DNA from: Bugulina stolonifera
Lineage: Eukaryota > Bryozoa > Gymnolaemata > Cheilostomatida > Bugulidae
Reading direction: 5' to 3'
Assembly: GCA_935421135.1 (NCBI GenBank)
Contig: OW285193.1
Location: forward strand, 8,178,496 to 8,242,495
Length of the DNA stretch: 64,000 nt
Positions within the stretch are counted from its first letter, which is position 1. Every line of letters starts with the position of its first letter. The position numbers were made by a program, and so were the translations under genes. This document shows, in pieces, positions 10,201 to 22,000 of this stretch. The notes beneath the pieces are model-generated. The model made no database searches and was not told the origin of the DNA. It worked only from the letters and a program-made list of their open reading frames with translations.

Positions 10201-13200
10201 CCCAAACCATTTGTTGCTTTACAACCAGAATTACCAAAGTCAGCTTCCTAGATATGTATATAATTCTAACTACACTACACTACACTACTCCAACTATAAA
10301 GTATACTGTACAGTGAATAATACACTGGACTAAACAGGCAGCTTCTAAAACATAGCAGGAATATTATGTTCTACTACATCTGCATGATATTATCTATGTT
10401 GAGCATCTTCAATGCTAAGTACTGTGTAGATAAATATTGAAGTAGGAGTATTTTAGAATTTAGCCTATGTTAGTAGTATAGTCAGTGCAGATCTACACAG
10501 ACACCCGGCCCTTTCCGCGTCGTATTAGCCCTAGATCCAAAAACTCCCCGGGCGGACGACCACCCCACCCGTCTTCTCGCCCCTCCTCTCCCCTAAACCT
10601 CACTCTATGTGCAAAGCCCTAGAACCTACTCCCCCCATCGCGGGTGGGGTTTCAAAAACCTCATCGGCTGTTCCGCGGAACCCAGTCTAAAGAGCAAACC
10701 CCTCGCCCCATCCCACGGCTCGGGCGAGGGGGCGCGCGTACGCGCGCGCCCCCTCGCCCCGCGAACCCCACCCGTCCTCCCTCCACCCGTCCCCGCCCCT
10801 CCCCACCCCTCCCCACCCCAAACCCCTCCGCCTCGCCCTCCGCCTCGCGGCGGTTCTCGTTCGCGAGTCCAGCCGTGGCCCCACGCCGCCCTCCCCCCGC
10901 CCATCCCCCGCCCCTCCCCCGCCCTCCCGCCCCAACGACCCGTCGCGACCCTCGCGGGCGGACCGTTGGCTGGAGTAGGGTGAAGCGAAGAAAAATACGG
11001 GTTAGAGTAATGGTGTGTGATGTATTCTAGAATAGATGATATACGACTATGAAAATATGAGTCAGGGTAATGATACACGAGTTTGTTTTAATTTTCAATG
11101 CGTTTGAGAGTAATAATATAAAATCAATCGATAAAAAACTTGATATGTGACTACGAAAAATATGAGTAAGGGTAATGATACGCGAGTTTGTTTTAATTTT
11201 CAATACGTTTGAGAGTAATAATATAAAATCAAGCGATAAAAAACTTGATATACGACTATGAAAAATATGAGTAAGGGTAATGATACACGAGTTTGTTTTA
11301 ATTTTCAATACGTTTGAGAGTAATAATATAAAATCAATCGATAAAAACCGATATACGACAATGAAAAATATGAGTAAGGCTAACGATACACGAGTTTGAG
11401 AGTAATAATATAAAATCAATTGATAAGTAGACACGAATGAGTGTGAATGACAAAAGTTTTTGCCTCAAAACTGTGCAGTGGCGGGGAGGAGACGCTCGCC
11501 GAGGATGGAGTCTAGAATGGCACAATCGTAGAATGTTCTCCCGCTCTTGGAAGTCTTCTGTCCCTTGTACACCATCACGGAGGGGAGGAGCTCTTTCATC
11601 AAAACTGCCAGACGTACCGGAAGGAAGACTTCTCCCTTTTTTTCTTCGTTTCCAATCCGGCACTCGTAGGTGGCAATGGAGTTGCTCGCATTATCACCAT
11701 CACCGCATCTTGGGACGTATGTGGGTCGGAGCGCGGTCACCACCAGCACAGAACCAACGGGGAATGAAGATAGCGTTTGCACTCGAAAAAATTCTTCCAA
11801 CTGGGCCAAGGTCTTCTTTCTCAAGTCACCGGCCAGCTTTTTCATGGCTGCTCCTGGCAGGGAGCACACGCTCTCGATACGGTTGAATGTGTTTTGTCCT
11901 TTAGCGGTCTCCTGCTGTCCCAAGTACACCATGATCCTAGGTGGAAGGGTAAGGTCCTTTAGCTCCTCTTCTTTGACATCCGCTAGCTTGGGCATGGCGT
12001 GACGAATGTTGGTGTGAAAGCTGATGCAATGTCTCATCCCCTTGTCATCCACATAGCTTGCCCTGGCTAAGAATGCTTTTCCGAATGCCGTTTCAACCAC
12101 CGAACCTCCACTCACTTCTAGCACAGTCCCTGGCTCTAGCTCCGACAGCTTCACCGTTGTCTGCAGAGAGCTCCTCTTCTCCGCTCCCATGCTCCTACAA
12201 TAATGAAAGTGGTGTATATAGATCCGACAAAGTGGTTAAACGGGAGAAAGATAGTACGGTAATTTATAGATATACGAATAGGGCTACTTACATTAGGGTT
12301 GCCGCCACTGCACGAGCTTTCTCCAGGCTTAGTCCCCCGCTCTTTTTCTTCCCCTTGCAAGGGGACTTGGTAGCTTTTTTTCCCTTCGTCGTCTCACCAC
12401 CATCCATTTCTTCCGTAGCCGTATCGGCTCCGTGGCCATCATCATCATCATCATCTGATATTACAATCACCTGGGGTTTCTTTTTTTTCTTAGCACAGAT
12501 TTCATCTCCTTTTGGGTTCTTCCTCTTCTTGGTTGTTGTGGTCTCGCCCCTATCCGAGGCCCGCTCCGGGGAGGACGGAGAGTCCGCCATGTTAGAAAGA
12601 TCCTTTCGGGCAAGACTCCCCACTCCTATTATTTTCCCCTTCTTCCGTGCCTCTTTTAACGCATCCACCTCTTCTTTCCTCTTCTGACTGCACTCTTCTT
12701 CTTCAATAATTCCATCCATTTGTGAGTCCGTTAAGCCCGCAAATAACTCTTCTTGGTTTTGGACTATGTTGTCAGTATCCATTGATAATGTACTATTGTA
12801 GTAGTGTAGCTGTACAGTAGTGATGTGCTGAACTTTGAATGCTGAGACTGTGATCCCACTCTCCCTTTATACATCTGCTCATTTCTTGACTCCTCCCTTT
12901 TTTTTTATCCAATCCCAATGTGACCCGATGCACCCCGATGTGAATCCGAAGCCTCCCTATGCACCCCGATGTGAATCCGAAGCCTCCCGATGTGAATCCG
13001 AAGCCTCCCGATGCATCCCGATGTGAATCCGAAGCCTTCCGATGCACCCCGATGTGAATCCGAAGCCTCCCGATGCATCCCGATGTGAATCCGAAGCTTC
13101 CCGATGCATCCCGATGTGATTCCGAAGCTTCCCGATGCATCCCGATGTGAATCCGAAGCTTCCCGATGCATCCCGATGTGATTCCGAAGCTTCCCGATGC

Positions 13201-16200
13201 ATCCCGATGTGATTCCGAAGCTTCCCGATGCATCCCGATGTGTCAATTCACATCGGGGTGCATCGGGATGCATCGGGAGGCTTCGGAATCACATCGGGAT
13301 GCATCGGGAAGCTTCGGAATCACATCGGGATGCATCGGGAAGCTTCGGATTCACATCGGGATGCATCGGGAAGCTTCGGATTCACATCGGGATGCATCGG
13401 GAGGCTTCGGATTCACATCGGGGTGCATCGGGAGGCTTCGGATTCACATCGGGAGGCTTCGGATTCACATCGGGGTGCATCGGGAGGCTTCGGATTCACA
13501 TCGGGAGGCTTCGAATTCACATCGGGAGGCTTCGGATTCAAATCGGGAGGCTTCGGATTCACATCGGGGTGGTATTGCCAAGGGTGGGGAAATGGTTAGA
13601 CTCCGCCCACTGAATACTACTATTTAAGGTATGAGTTTCTCACTCTAGCAGTATGAACAATCAGCCTCTAGTCAACAGAGTGAGAGTAAACAGAGACAGC
13701 TACCTACTAGTCAGCGCCTGATCAGAGATGTCAACAAGTACAACATAAGGTTAGTGCTAAATAGGGTAATCGGCAGCAATTGTGAAGTGTCTATTGTATA
13801 TAACGCTATTGAGCCAAAAACAAAAAAAATTAACTTACACCCTACTACTATATATTTTTTATAGGGAGACTAAACAGAGACACTTACCTACTAGTCAGCA
13901 CCTGATCAGAGATGTCAACAAGTAAAAAAGGTTAGTGCTAAATGAGGTAGTTGGTAACAATTGTGGATTGCTAATAGTAGTATGAGGTAAAAGAATAACT
14001 TACACCCTACTATTTTGTATTTTTATAGGGGGGGGAGAGCTCTCGTCAGGCCGAGCACACTTGTCAACTATGCGGTCTGGTTCTCAAAACAGCGTTTTCT
14101 CTAGACAGGCACACGAAGAGAATGCATGCACAGGCTCACCCACACAAGTGCCCGGTTTGTGGCGGATATTTTGATGGGAGAAGAAAGCTAGGTCATCACA
14201 TGAGACGATTTCATAGCGAGGCCAAGGCGGAAAAAGATGAGGGGGATGCAGAGAAGTTTGATGATGTTTTCTGGTCCAAACCTCCAACAGCTGAAGAGGG
14301 GGATGAGATGGGGGTGCTACTAGCCCGCTATTGGAGTTCGATCAGGTCCACAATACACTCTTGTCCTGTAGAAGACATTCTCAACGTTCGAGTGTGGAGA
14401 GGGGAATGTGAAGATGAAGGAGATGAAGAGGTGTGGACTAAATTGAGAGCGATGTGGAAGAGAGTACCTTGTACTGTGAAGATTAACTGTAGCGCTGGAG
14501 TCATCCTCGAGCATAAGACCAGTGGAGAGTTGCGCTACTTTCACTCATCAAGCAACAATGCCGCGTTCTTCCCCAAGCCAAGACTGATCAGAGCAGAGAA
14601 TGAGATGAGAGAGTTTTGCGAATCTGTGCAGGAGCTCGACTTGAGAGAGAGGTCAGCACAAAGGAGACCGAACACCGCTTGGGTTTTACGTCACATTGCA
14701 AATTTGACATTCTACATCTATAAACTCCTAGAGATTGGCAAGGTGGGTGGTGTAGTGAGCAAACTCCCAGACTACATACTTAACAACCGACATGTGATAG
14801 CACTAGATGTAGACTTTTGGGCCAGAGGAGGTGCCCGTCCCTACCCAGACAAATTGTGTTTCTTTAGATGTTTGGCCATGATGTATGACTGTAACTGCGA
14901 CCCAAAGAAGGGATGTTGCTGTCATCGCCCCTCTCAGACCACAACACATCGCTTGTTTAAACAATACATGAGACAATCTAGATCTTCTTCCCCACCCTCA
15001 TCAACTTTGTCAGACTTTCCCGGGGTGGGCGCGAGTGATCTGCTGGCCTTGGAAGATCATTTTGACATATCTATAATAGTCTTCTGCCTAACTGATGAGG
15101 GGGTAGCTCCGATAGTTTGGTCATCTGGGGCACGAAACAAAGCCCGTAAACTCTTTGTCAACATGTACGAAAAACACTTCAGCTGGATAAAGAATGTTGA
15201 TTCGTTTGCCAGATGTTTCACCTGCAAGTTGTGCGATGGCGCTTTCACACGTTTGTCCAGCCTACGGCGACATAAGTGCTCGCCAGAGGAAGCATCGGTG
15301 TTTGTTTTCCCTGGTGGAACGTTTGGACCCCCGCCAACCATATTCACAAAACTCAAGCGAGTGGCGGGAATAGAGGTGGTGAACCCCGACCTCTTATACT
15401 ACCCCTACTATATCACCTATGATATTGAATGCTTCATGCCAAAAGACAACCTACAAACTAACACCTCCACAATGACTTTTAGTGCAAGACACGAGTTACT
15501 GAGCATATCTGTATGTTCTAACGTCCCGGGGTTTGAGCAGGCCAAGTGCTTTGTGAGGAGTGTCGACAGCAAGGATGGAACGAAGTGCATTCGTCAATTC
15601 GTCCACTACATAGCAAAGATTGCTGACGTGGCAGGAGATTTGTTCGGAGAAAGATTCCGGGATGTACGCAAGCGACTCTCTACTTTCCTTGCGGATCGGG
15701 CGGATAGAGAAGAAGCCTTTGCTGACGAAAAGTTCTCTAATGTCTCGACTTACAGGGTGAAGTCCGGTCTCTCCGGATTAGAAAGAGAGTTAGAACAGCA
15801 CATCTCCAGCGTTCCGGTGGTTGGTTTCAACTCACAAAAGTATGACCTAAATATACTAAAGGGACCTTTGCTTCGCTCTCTACAAGAGGAGGAGGGAGAA
15901 GATTTTGTCTTCATCGTTAAGCGTGTTAACAGTATGTCCTGCGTGGAGAGTAGACGTTTTAGGTTCCTTGACATATGCAACTTTATCGCACCGGGCTTCA
16001 ACTACTCCAAATACTTGAAGGCATTTGGCGTGTCAGAGAGTAAGGGATTCTTTCCTTACGACTGGGTAGATTCCCTGAGAAGGTTGGATTATTATGGACT
16101 CCCTCCGCGAGAGAGTTTTTTCAACTCGCTGACTCAGCAAGAATTGAGCGAGCAAGATTATCACCACTGTCAGGTCGTGTGGGAAAGAGAGAACATGGAA

Positions 16201-19022
16201 ACGTTCAGGGATTTTCTCATCTGGTACAACAACCTCGATGTGGCCCCATTCATCGAGGCCATTGCACGTCAGAGCTCTATCTATCGACAAAAGGGTATTG
16301 ACATGTTGAAATCCGCAATCTCGCTTCCAGGCTTGGCTATCAGATGGTTGTTTATGGAGGTGGAGGCCCGACCTTATGGCTACTCTCCTCCACAAGCCGC
16401 TCTTCCGCTGCATAGGTTAATGTCTCTCCGAGACGAACTTTGCAACTCGCAACCCATATGTCTGTTCGATGAGGAGAGCAAAAGTCTGTACCATACTCTT
16501 CGCGATAACCTCGTGGGAGGGCCAAGCATTATCTTTCACAGACATCATGAAGTTGGAGTGACCTCTATTCGAGAGAAGATGTATGGCACATCCGCAAAAC
16601 CCTGTAGGTCCATTCTGGGAGTTGATGCCAACGCCCTCTACCTATACTGTATGATGGGGAATATGCCTACGGGTTATCCCAGGCGGAGGCTAGAGAGCCG
16701 AGGCTTTGCTCTAGAACCTATTAAAAAGTTCAGCAAAGTGGCGCATGGTTGGTTAGAGTTCCAATCGTGGAAGAGAGGAGAGGTTATCCTTCACCAACAG
16801 AATGGAGGAGGAATGAGGATAGGCTGTCACAACCTACCAGTGGATGGTTATAGCGAACAGAGTCGGACGGTGTACCAATTCCACGGTTGCTACTGGCATG
16901 GGCACGAGTGCGAGCTAGGAGGGAACGGAAAAGGTGTCAGAAACATGACGAATGAAGAGCTCCGGGTGGACACTGCAAGGAAAGAAGATTACATCAAGGC
17001 TCTAGGCTATAAGCTCATCACCACTCGGCAGTGTGAGTGGGAAGCGCGAGTTCGTTCGGATGTAGAAGTTAGGACATTTCTCGCCATCTTCTTTTCTTCT
17101 CTCTATCCGGAGAGGGGTTACGTCAACCTCGATAAGATAATCAATAACATTCGTAGTGGAGAGTACTATGGTTTAGTGGAGTGTGACATTTCCGTACCCG
17201 AAGAGCTAAAAGCGAAGTTCTCTGAGATGGCACCTATTTTCAAGAATATAAACGTGGGAAGAGAACACCTTAGCGAACACATGCGCGCTTTTGCCGAACA
17301 GAACGGATTCTTGAAGAGACCTCAGCGAATGCTCGTGGGGAGTCTTTTTGGCAAGCGAATCACACTACTCTCCGATCTGGCTAGATGGTATCTAGATCAA
17401 GGTTTGATAATTACCAGGATCTATCAGTTTGTTCACTTTATCCCACGGGCCATCTACAAAGACTTTGGTTCTTCGGTCTCAGACGCAAGAAGAGGTGGGG
17501 ATGTGAACCCCGACCTGGCCCTCTTGGCCAGCACCAGCAAGCTCGTTGGGAATTCAGCCTACGGAAAGACCATAACAAATAAAGAGAAACATAAGACTGT
17601 CAAGTATGTGGAGACAGTAGAGGAGGCGGCTGTCAAAGTGAGGAGTAGGCACTTTTCTAGTCTAAACGAAGTTGATGAAAACTACTTTGAGATAGAGCTT
17701 CACAAGAAAAAGGCAAGTGTTGACAATCTTTTTTTTTTTTATTTTGATTCTTGATTTGACGAAACTTTTTCTGAGTGGTAGGGTAAACTCTCTCTCTCTC
17801 TTTCTTTCTTTTAGATTCGAATGGATGTTCCATCTGTCGTAGGATTCGTTATCCTCCAGAGAGCCAAGTTGAGAATGCTAGAATTCTACTACGACTTTAT
17901 GGATAGGTAAGTAGAACTAGATTATACAAAGATTTTATCAAATCCTTCTCTATTTATTCTTTGGTGTCAACCCCAACCCCCCCCCCCCCCCCTACAACCC
18001 GTCCGTTTTATTTTCACAGATTCGTCAGCAGAGAGGACTTTGAGTACGTAGAAATGGACACGGATAGCGCTTACATGGCTCTGAGTGCTCGTAGTATAGA
18101 TGAGGTCATCCGAAAAGATAAAAAAGAAGAGTTCTACAGAGAATATGGTAGATGGTTTCCCAGACCCTTCTGCGATAGGCACAAGGAAGACTTTATCACG
18201 ACCAAGGTGCTTGGCCAAGAGTGGGAGATGAGGGAATGTTGTGAGAAGGTGCAACGATACGAAACACGAACCCCCGGCCTGTTTAAGGAGGAGTTTCGGG
18301 GGGAGGGGGTCATCGCGCTCAACTCAAAAACATACTTTTGCTGGTCCGCTGATGGTGATAGCAAGTATAGCAGCAAAGGACTAAACAAAAGAGGAAACGC
18401 CCTAACCAAAGAGAAATTCCTCTCCGTGCTCAGGACAGGGGAGTCGGTGAGAGGGGACAATCGGGGTTTTATCAGAAGAGGAAACCAAACGTATAGCTAC
18501 ACCCAGCTAAAGACCGGACTCACCTACTTCTATGGTAAGCGGAAGGTTGCAGAAGACGGGGTGAGTACGAGTCCTATAGAATGCTAGTACTGATTTCTCG
18601 GAGATGAGACTACTTCATTCGATAAATTGGAGAGTAAACGAACAGTGCATCATAACCCTTTTACATATACCCGTATAATTTTTTTCACATTCACTCTCTA
18701 TTGTAAGGGGTCTCCGTCCTCAAAACGGAGGGTTTACCGGTTGTAGCCTTAAAACCGAGCAATAAAACACTAGCTAATACATTAAAAACCATTTACCTCT
18801 CCAAACCAAAGGGGTAGACGGTACTAGCGCAGCTTCCGCTCATACTCACCCCTTATCAGTTCACATTTCTTCTATTGTCTTCATTCGTAGGTGGGGGGTG
18901 ACATCGCACGCGCACGATGCGCTCTCTCCCTATCGGAGTTTGCTACCCGGGGGAAAGTGGACGCGGTGGTCAAAGAAATTGGTGGCAAGTCAACGACATC
19001 ATCGTAGAGGCGGGTCTATTTG

Positions 19023-19078
<56 letters not shown>

Positions 19079-22000
19079 CGATGGCGATGAGAAGACAAGC
19101 ATCCATCTATCCCGTTTATCTATTTCTATTTCTACCCCTCCGAGCGATGATGTCGTCGGCTAACCTCCTCGCGAAGTCTACGGTTTGAAGCGCGGAAGAG
19201 CCACCGCCTTCACTTTCTCTCGCCGCTCGTCACGGGGACGGGCGATTTCCCTAGGGGAGGGTCCGGGGAAAATGAGGGTTAAGACGCGAGTCTTTCATCG
19301 AAGGTCCGGGGGCGCTCGAACGGAGGAGCGCGCGAGTGCGGTGTCACCCCGACCAGTTCAGTCTCAACAGTCCCCGGCGAAGAAATCATCCGGAAGCACC
19401 ACCACCACCACTCGGTAAGTTTTTTTATAGTAGTATAGTCAGCGTCGTAAACTCTGCACGGGCACTCCGCATGGGTGTAGCCTATCATTACTCTAACCCG
19501 TATTTTCCTTCGCTTCACCCTACTCCAGCCGACGGTCCGCCCACGAGGGTCGCGACGGGTCGTTGGGGCGGGAGGGCGGGGGAGGGGCGGGGGATGGGCG
19601 GGGGGAGGGCGGCGTGGGGCCACGGCTGGACTCGCGAACGAGAACCGCCGCGAGGCGGAGGGCGAGGCGGAGGGGTTTGGGGTGGGGAGGGGTGGGGAGG
19701 GGCGGGGACGGGTGGAGGGAGGACGGGTGGGGTTCGCGGGGCGTGGGGGCGCGCGCGTACGCGCGCCCCCTCGCCCGAGCCGTGGGATGGGGCGAGGGGT
19801 TTGCTCTTTAGACTGGGTTCCGCGGAACAGCCGATGAGGTTTTTGAAACCCCACCCGCGATGGGGGGGGAGTAGGTTCTAGGGCTTTGCACATAGAGTGA
19901 GGTTTAGGGGAGAGGAGGGGCGAGAGGACGGGTGGGGTGGTCGTCCGCCCGGGGAGTTTTTGGATCTAGGGCTAATACGACGCGGAAAGGGCCGGGTGTC
20001 TGTGTAGATCTGCACTGACTATACTACTTATGTTCAAAGAATATATTTAACCTCTATTAATCCAAACACCGAGATACATATATAAGAGAGAACACAGGCT
20101 TTCCTCTCTTATCTTATCATTAGCATAACACTGTTTACTCTCCTCTTCTAAATGAATATGCTTGCATAAGTGTTTTCTCTTTAGTGCAAAGTAATGTACA
20201 ATGTTTGCAGTAGTTGAGAGCAAAGATAGTAAAACTTTATAACCACTGGATCTGTTGAAGAGAGAGTTGTACCAAAAACCTATTTTTATCTCTGCCATAA
20301 TAATAGAATTCTACAATATTGTAAATAGGTGTTTGAAATGTGTTATACAGTTATATAGTTATATAGTTATATAGTTATATAGTTATATAGTTATAATGTA
20401 GGAAAAAAAATATATTGCAGTATGGAACATGTATTAATTTATACAACATTATTATATGGTAGTGAATATAAATGACTGGTCGTATACATAAAATAATATC
20501 ATTATGTGCATAAAATAGGTAACACTGCACATAGATGACACATATACATGTACATGTAGGTTTGCCAAAGCCCAAGCATACATGTAGACTATGAGTGGAA
20601 TAACTAATGTTAGGTGGTGGACGACTCCAACAGCATGATGTCATAAAAGCTGCGCCTAAAACATTTCTAGCGTAACATCGTTACGTCTTAGCTATCTATT
20701 GCATACTGTAGTCTAATTTTTCACATAATAATATATTCCATAACCTACTCATGTTTGAGTTTATGAGAGTAGCTATTATTGTGTCTTCCCAAAGGGAGGC
20801 TAATATCAATATCTCTCATAGTACATCAGCAAAGATAAATGTTATCACAGTAATAAACATAATGGTAATTATTCCAACCCACTGTTATCAATCCAACCCT
20901 AGACTGCATATAGAAAATGTAGACTCAGGTTAAATAGTTCACTAGCTGCGAGCAAGCCTATCTAACTATAGCATGCTCAATCAATCAAAATAATTATAGG
21001 TTTCATCCATAATAGAAAGTGAACGCAACTAATTTGTCAGAAATGTGTGATTTGAGACCGACTACATGAGAAACAAGCAATCGAAAACATAAAAGTAACA
21101 GTAAAAGTAAGTCAGTTTGAGTTTTAGCAGTTTCGGCGCCTTTTGTGAGAGCTTAAAAACCCAGGATATTATCCAAAAAATCGAAGCTCCTGATTGGTTG
21201 TGGAGGCAGCCACTCAACATTACTACATTACTACATGCATGCAATATATCATGTACATGTAACTGTCCAGTACTGGACAGTACTATATTCATTACTGTCC
21301 AGTACTGTCCAGCACTGTCCAGTACTGTTCAGCACTGCCCAGCACTGTCCAGTACTGTCCAGTACTGTCTGCGTGTTGTAGCCGATTCCTGATTCTTGAA
21401 CATAAATGTTAACAAGGAACTAATTAGATATAAAACTGCACAGGGGACAGGGGAACTGAGGAACACAATCTAAGTATTCCTCATCCCTGTAATGAAAAGT
21501 GTAACCTTCAACTTGGGCCCATGGTATATGATGAACAACCTGCCACCCTGCACGATATTGACTCATGCAAAAAGTCTCCTAATTAAACCACCTTCACGCT
21601 GAATTTTAAAGTAAAAACCTGCAAGGAGCAACTTCAATTCTTCAATCCGTAGCTAGATCCAAAGAACCCAACTTTCAAATGAATATCAGAATATAAATTC
21701 CAGAAAACAAATACTAATAGATACATAAATATCAACAATATTGATTCTATCCCCTCCTGTGTTTAATAGCTTAGTGAAAGATTCCTATCTCACCACTGTT
21801 ATAGCGTTGTTCAACTGTACGAACATTCGACATGTGGAACTAATCATACGCAATAAAAATTAATGACAAGTGAAATGTAAAACCTTCCTAATTTAGTTTA
21901 TCTCTAAAAATCTTATGAAAATGAAAGAGCCTGAAAAACTTGCAATAGTGTTGGATATTATTTATTCTGAGTAGTATACATGTAAATAAACTATTCCAAC

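Follow-up and report, generated by a model that had tools for sequence, protein, structure and literature searches.

The genome of the bryozoan Bugulina stolonifera (235 Mb in 27 contigs, as searched) contains, in the 64,000-bp window analyzed here (C7:8178496-8242495), an element of 9,557 bp at window positions 10472..20028. A preliminary description, based on the letters of the window, had presented it as a two-gene Polinton lacking an integrase. In this work we describe this element, called segment R, together with a second repeated family of the same genome, called segment M, in which the genes not found in R are present or predicted. The features of R are as follows, with exons as predicted.

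10466..10471, no strand: left copy of the 6-bp target-site duplication (TSD), TATGTT, read from the sequence
10472..11012, plus strand: left terminal inverted repeat (TIR) of R, whose tip AGTAGTATAGTCAGTGCA is common to segment M
11465..12194, minus strand: second gene, predicted exon 2
12292..12782, minus strand: second gene, predicted exon 1, acidic and lysine-rich, with junctions taken from the sequence
12914..13571, no strand: CATCGGG-containing repeat array that separates the divergent genes and consists of two inverted halves
14029..17718, plus strand: main exon of the family B DNA polymerase (PolB), with C2H2 fingers, a predicted terminal protein (TP) and viral OTU (vOTU)-like region, exonuclease, a weak Vsr-like insert and palm motifs A and B
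17815..17906, plus strand: PolB, predicted exon 2
18020..18587, plus strand: PolB, predicted exon 3, with palm motif C (MDTDS at 18054) and the conserved C-terminus
19429..19442, plus strand: internal copy of the terminal motif AGTAGTATAGTCAG, immediately inward of the right TIR, read from the sequence
19486..20028, minus strand: right TIR of R
20029..20034, no strand: right copy of the TSD, TATGTT, read from the sequence

The perfect TATGTT duplication, the AG...CT ends and the inverted repeats of about 540 bp reported in the preliminary description were all confirmed. The element reads AGTAGTATAG...CTATACTACT at its termini, and the alignment of its TIRs (541 and 543 bp) has 5 mismatched and 2 gapped columns out of 543. 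Long TIRs with AG/(AGT)2-type tips and a 6-bp TSD, as expected of a Polinton/Maverick, are found in R and also in M. The G+C content of R is higher than that of its surroundings. The internal motif at 19429-19442 faces the right end, and the stretch 19429-20028 resembles a 600-bp unit with tips of its own. The array at 12914-13571 is a large near-palindrome of units of about 31 bp, the 253-bp arms of which are 96% complementary. Pfam scans of seven frames of R revealed neither an rve-type integrase nor packaging ATPase, protease or capsid genes, all of which a Polinton/Maverick is expected to carry on the same element; a tblastn search of R with the corresponding M proteins, and with the proteins of a conventional Polinton of this genome (group A, see below), gave the polymerase as its sole match (group A PolB, 27%). 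The absence of these genes had been pointed out in the preliminary description.

The PolB of R matches DNA_pol_B_2 in Pfam (2.2e-6). When two predicted short GT-AG introns (17719-17814 and 17907-18019) are removed, its frame completes, with the conserved motif C and C-terminus, to position 18587; the apparently intact polymerase with exonuclease and palm motifs described earlier thus stands, with the addition of splicing, which had gone unmentioned. In several R-type copies (C10:7089515, C1:20258123, C9:6617041 and others) the C-terminal match lies inside one open frame of about 1,520-1,530 aa, so some of these copies may do without the introns. The N-terminal region, modelled with a pLDDT of 82, has viral OTU proteases as its best PDB matches, all of them weak (best E 0.027); its best match among viral models is a C2H2 protein of an adintovirus (E 4.6e-12). 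All 10 aligned sequences, that of the window PolB among them, keep the vOTU-like Cys and His without variation. The TP part is weakly supported, by low-ranking matches to polymerase iota only, and the C2H2 fingers and the weak Vsr-like segment score below the curated Pfam cut-offs. A section of PMC11071308 gives the layout of Polinton polymerases as TP-vOTU-exonuclease-palm, with which the OTU and adintovirus matches agree. By its sequence, the R polymerase would have the four parts expected of a Polinton polymerase, and protein priming is predicted for it. Exon 1 is open in all 38 copies scored (the best 38 of 523 candidates), at about 100% identity. Scans of viral contigs yielded no external relatives, and the scan of genome contigs gave only two bacterial Vsr-like matches (29-31%).

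The other convincing gene of the preliminary description was likewise found, as two predicted exons on the minus strand. It has a single database relative (99%) and no Pfam match; its PHROG and PDB matches are at chance level and its predicted structure is unreliable (pLDDT 31). A single-stranded DNA-binding protein label was dropped, as there was only a weak resemblance to an open reading frame in the group A TIR (E 0.018, one comparison). Its first 83 residues were found again in one M copy. Among 340 candidate copies 150 were scored, all of them at least 98% identical and 146 stop-free.

Gene scoring for both R and M covered the best matches, which in most searches were less than half of the candidates. 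The search with the R TIR gave 678 candidates; the 40 scored are all 99-100% identical over the full length, so that this repeat is not a product of chance. Thirty R TIRs compared with each other have a mean divergence of 0.33% and a maximum of 1.1%, and TSDs match in the three R copies with both ends read. The preliminary description had proposed a genome search for copies of about 9-10 kb with the same two genes, and a repeated family of this kind was obtained, with 21 of 22 measured copies between 9,317 and 9,748 bp. The sole longer copy measured among the 22 (12,557 bp) is a nested insertion of R in R, and an origin of the window element by internal deletion of a longer copy was rejected. 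R is a young repeated family and no one-off deletion. Neither of the R copies read (the window copy and most of the nested one, L045) carries integrase or capsid genes inside, and the sign of a single internal deletion named in the preliminary description was not encountered. The frames are open in nearly all scored copies, in keeping with the earlier view that the element is not a dead deletion remnant.

Segment M emerged from a search for the packaging ATPase family, in which 150 of 192 candidates were scored; 10 loci fell into two groups, A and B, and group B is M. Both ends were read in three M copies: C6:13986207-13995814 (9,608 bp), C8:4005534-4015311 (9,778 bp) and C8:3994556-4004279 (9,724 bp). 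The gene set comprises coiled-coil, ATPase, PY-like, integrase, penton-like, pVI-like, MCP-like (MCP, major capsid protein) and protease-like genes. The integrase was recognized by Pfam (rve, 3e-11, plus a chromodomain), as was the ATPase, and the protease has weak matches only (Pfam adenovirus endoprotease, 0.014; Cysteine protease S273R, 0.13); for the capsid, penton, pVI and PY proteins we presume the identity from general resemblance and gene order. A copy of the main subfamily, from C1:24013764 onward, has the same gene order and, from the left end to the inner part of the right TIR, leaves no unread gap into which the R PolB would fit. PolB exon 1 of R had no tblastn match in the M stretches read, which bear an integrase and no detectable PolB on the same element. 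Frames are largely kept in M: 150 of 347 integrase candidates were scored, all at least 98% identical and all stop-free, and the same holds for 150 of 253 ATPase candidates at 97% or more. An ATPase match lies at most 15 kb away on the same strand for 128 of these 150 integrases, at the same spacing in 119 (two values by strand, a measuring artefact), within 13 bp of it in 4 and at a different spacing in 5. In the C6 copy the ATPase and PY-like frames are less than 30 nt apart. TSDs match in four of the five M copies with both ends read, the flanks of the fifth (C8:3994556) being unmatched. A TIR probe from the main family found 95-100% identity in 40 of 729 candidates scored, and one from an older copy found 89-93% in 39 others. 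LTR (long terminal repeat)-retrotransposon-like gag/pol frames were seen beside and inside an M copy on C11 (stretches L043 and L044).

Several observations tie the two families to each other. The R and M tips are identical in 18 of 18 bp and then in 11 of 15. Taken over 40 bp, the tip shows no variation among the 30 R loci, nor among 11 of the 12 tips from M. The 18-mer occurs at 678 + 693 = 1,371 exact sites genome-wide, with none for the reversed control, which is close to the 1,374 expected as 2 x (340+347) from the first-look candidates of R and M. The adenovirus core replication origin also occupies the terminal 18 bp or so, a likeness that we take as a lead and not as a test. Pairing of the first 100 listed 18-mer sites, all on C1, gave 46 pairs and 8 unpaired sites. 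By the gene matches listed, 16 pairs are R and 15 are M, none holds both and 15 are unclassified; 13 of the 16 R pairs measure 9,320-9,760 bp and 13 of the 15 M pairs 10,045-10,858 bp. CATCGGG heptamers number 38 in R and 46 in the M stretch L064, compared with 1 in the group A stretches, 1 in the rest of the window and 0 in the stretches of a further Polinton family (C, see below). In addition, the M copy C8:3994556-4004279 contains a 1.3-kb block from R at 90% identity, which indicates that the segments recombine. As a separate observation, at C1:14505550-14505589 two inverted 18-mer tips stand within 40 bp, a solo double end with no element.

Taken together, these results lead us to propose, with good confidence, that R is the replication segment of a bipartite Polinton and M its integration and morphogenesis segment. 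The preliminary description had regarded R as a replication-only derivative that borrows its integrase. That the integrase must be borrowed still holds; the description that fits R better is that of one of the two parts of a Polinton, because M has the same 18-bp tips, a similar copy number, the remaining gene set and no detectable polymerase. We infer that R and M complement each other in trans. The similar numbers and the reading frames kept in both would follow if each segment were stranded alone.

An explanation to be weighed against this proposal is that a complete Polinton with identical tips lies hidden in the genome and supplies every function to R and M, which would both be its non-autonomous derivatives and complementary in appearance only. 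A complete element with these 18-bp tips is possible, given that scoring covered less than half of the candidates and that 15 of the 46 C1 pairs have no classification, including a pair of 40 bp and another of 15,047 bp (C1:12730353-12745399). Broken frames point the same way, since three of the M copies read have at least one: the MCP-like and pVI-like frames in the C6 copy, the integrase and protease frames in C8:4005534, and in the main C1 copy a penton-like frame that starts late (209 of 256 aa). On the other hand, none of the 31 classified C1 pairs holds both modules, the tip count is near that predicted from R and M, and the frames are open in nearly every scored copy, which a deletion derivative supported in trans would not need. 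We regard a hidden complete Polinton as unlikely. Further points weigh against the bipartite proposal, which is built on genome sequence, so that replication, packaging and mobility are predictions. The MCP-like protein has 40 homologues, none informatively named, and no Pfam or informative PDB match. Beyond about 33 bp the R and M TIRs differ and are unrelated apart from the repeat array; a passage in PMC8097293 gives AGTAGT, the first six bases of the tip, as a motif of Maverick ends, so that only bases 7-18 are specific. The M TIRs are more varied than those of R (99-100%). The candidate counts are loose, with 253 ATPases versus 347 integrases for M and 523 PolB versus 340 second-gene candidates for R, and the Pfam ATPase search itself gave only 4 M copies among the matches listed. 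There is also a weak and unexplained excess of R/M insertions within 30 kb of each other (14 cases, where 500 shuffles averaged 6.4 and reached 15 at most), and several other Polintons of the genome could act as helpers.

This last point leads back to the earlier view of a borrowed integrase, in the form that R would be a self-copying satellite of other Polintons and take its integrase from, for instance, group A or family C. Group A (C1:4278024-4293072) is a full Polinton of the conventional kind: it has a PolB and an integrase of its own, TIRs that match over 513 bp and the 6-bp TSD TAATAT, and the first 10 bp of its tip are common with R; family C, for its part, has a related PolB. But M matches R in 18 bp, in the CATCGGG array and in copy number, whereas in group A the match is 10 bp long, the array is missing and the PolB loci number six; moreover, M, which is equally abundant, would be left without any polymerase. 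R as such a satellite is, in our opinion, very improbable. Group A was also rejected as the parent of R, the PolB identity being only 27% over 214 aa and the common tip just 10 bp. A 114-aa frame lies inside both TIRs of group A and is thus present twice (L041 2149-2493 and L042 4511-4855).

Family C, whose integrase lies at C1:22076440 and whose ATPase near C1:22086626, is known from the inner stretch between them. Its order is ATPase, about 3 kb unassigned, PolB, PY-like, a 326-aa gene and integrase, so that PolB sits between the ATPase and integrase genes, where M has none. The identity to C is 38% for the ATPase, 44% for PY, 42% for the integrase and 41% for PolB, the latter on R; such uniformity is what a common descent of R and M from a single Polinton would predict. 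On the grounds of this gene order in a relative from the same genome, a one-piece Polinton would probably have lost PolB from between the ATPase and integrase genes, with PolB staying on a second molecule with the same ends. Family C also bears on the idea that M is a relic with capsid genes and a dead end, R being a self-sufficient, independent transposon with another insertion route, e.g. its own Vsr-like nuclease. The weak Vsr-like endonuclease segment in the R PolB would suit this idea, but family C, with an integrase close to its PolB, has the same motif in that polymerase; the 6-bp TSDs fit integrase-type insertion, and the integrase frame is open in all the scored M copies. There is, in our estimate, hardly any likelihood that R and M are unconnected in this way.

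The remaining Polintons of the genome were compared through a C-terminal PolB query, for which 150 matches were listed: 106 taken as R, 37 as non-R (among them C7:7065225 and C4:5648393, R-like by identity, 48%) and 7 second matches of the same loci. The integrases compared with them are the best 150 of 372 candidates, and absence from that set is no proof of absence. An integrase lies within 11 kb of 24 of the 37 non-R matches, including all 19 with frames of at least 1,343 aa. Within each of the families with frames of 1,343, 1,404 and 1,463 aa, the distance from PolB to integrase hardly varies, and the two members of the 1,415-aa family have distances of 2.2 and 6.3 kb. For R, 3 of 106 PolB matches have a listed integrase within 12 kb (8.6, 8.8 and 10.2 kb); the one on C1 belongs to a distinct M copy next to the R element, and the remaining two are integrases of the M type, judged by identity (43%). 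Eight of the remaining 13 non-R matches form a short-frame family (212-225 aa, C-terminal) with no listed integrase within 11 kb (C1:1224634, C11:2091318, C5:1561168, C3:1102545, C2:17157681, C8:2329482, C3:2479442 and C9:2865466), one of them with the integrase of another family 24 kb away. Conversely, five related integrases (269-361 aa; C10:3768103, C6:255390, C8:9429706, C9:13557561 and C4:3585507) have no listed PolB within 25 kb. Among the matches listed, these two sets are possibly another split pair.

Altogether, we consider it probable that a Polinton genome has become permanently divided here into two independently integrating segments, present in about equal number and exchanging sequence, which would make it a transposon-virus of the multipartite double-stranded DNA type, with hints of a second split pair. 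As to the mechanism, the predicted TP-polymerase of R would prime on the common tips and copy both segments, the integrase of M would insert both with 6-bp duplications, and the predicted capsid and packaging proteins of M would package both.

Polintons, described as single-molecule elements, are the proposed ancestors of many eukaryotic DNA viruses. If our proposal is true, it provides a case, open to direct testing, in which a monopartite DNA virus or transposon turns multipartite, with hundreds of copies and with Polintons bearing both PolB and integrase in the same genome. It would also bear on particle formation by Polintons, since similar numbers of two segments of about 10 kb might be most easily explained by joint packaging and joint entry into the cell. 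For genome annotation, it would mean that integrase-less PolB elements and PolB-less capsid elements deserve a check as pairs before they are filed as deletion remnants.

We know of no multipartite case among integrating double-stranded DNA Polintons. The open-licence literature, outside of which most subscription journals lie, gave no bipartite or segmented Polinton, and the nearest case is that of the Bidnaviridae; a passage on bipartition in PMC12220804 concerns a gene-sharing network. With the Polinton/Maverick elements (class Polintoviricetes in a section of PMC11071308), R and M have in common the long TIRs with an (AGT)2 tip, the 6-bp TSDs, a PolB with a predicted TP and vOTU-like region and, taken across both segments, the integrase, ATPase and predicted protease and capsid genes. 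They differ in that the core genes are split over two elements of about 10 kb, whereas intact vertebrate Mavericks are described in part of PMC8097293 as having eight core genes, int and ppolb included, on one element. In the Bidnaviridae, the Bombyx mori bidensovirus has two linear single-stranded DNA segments (6.5 and 6 kb) with inverted terminal repeats and a protein-primed PolB of Polinton origin, according to a portion of PMC4061559; in this family, as stated in part of PMC11071308, the active site of the vOTU has been replaced and the polymerase remains linked to the DNA. These viruses differ from R and M by their single-stranded DNA and their parvovirus-derived capsid and superfamily 3 helicase, R and M being chromosomal insertions with TSDs and an integrase. 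In seven frames of R and nine of M, Pfam gave no helicase above its cut-off; these scans included no search aimed at the Bidnaviridae capsid or helicase. Cytoplasmic linear plasmids have a Polinton-type PolB without the morphogenetic module and are described as non-viral in a section of PMC11071308, but R lies in the chromosomes, is flanked by TSDs and has a partner family that bears an integrase. Finally, as in multipartite and segmented viruses, complementary sets of genes, each of which would be essential, lie on separate molecules with a common terminal sequence, here the 18 bp at the tips of both segments, in a system known from its chromosomal copies.

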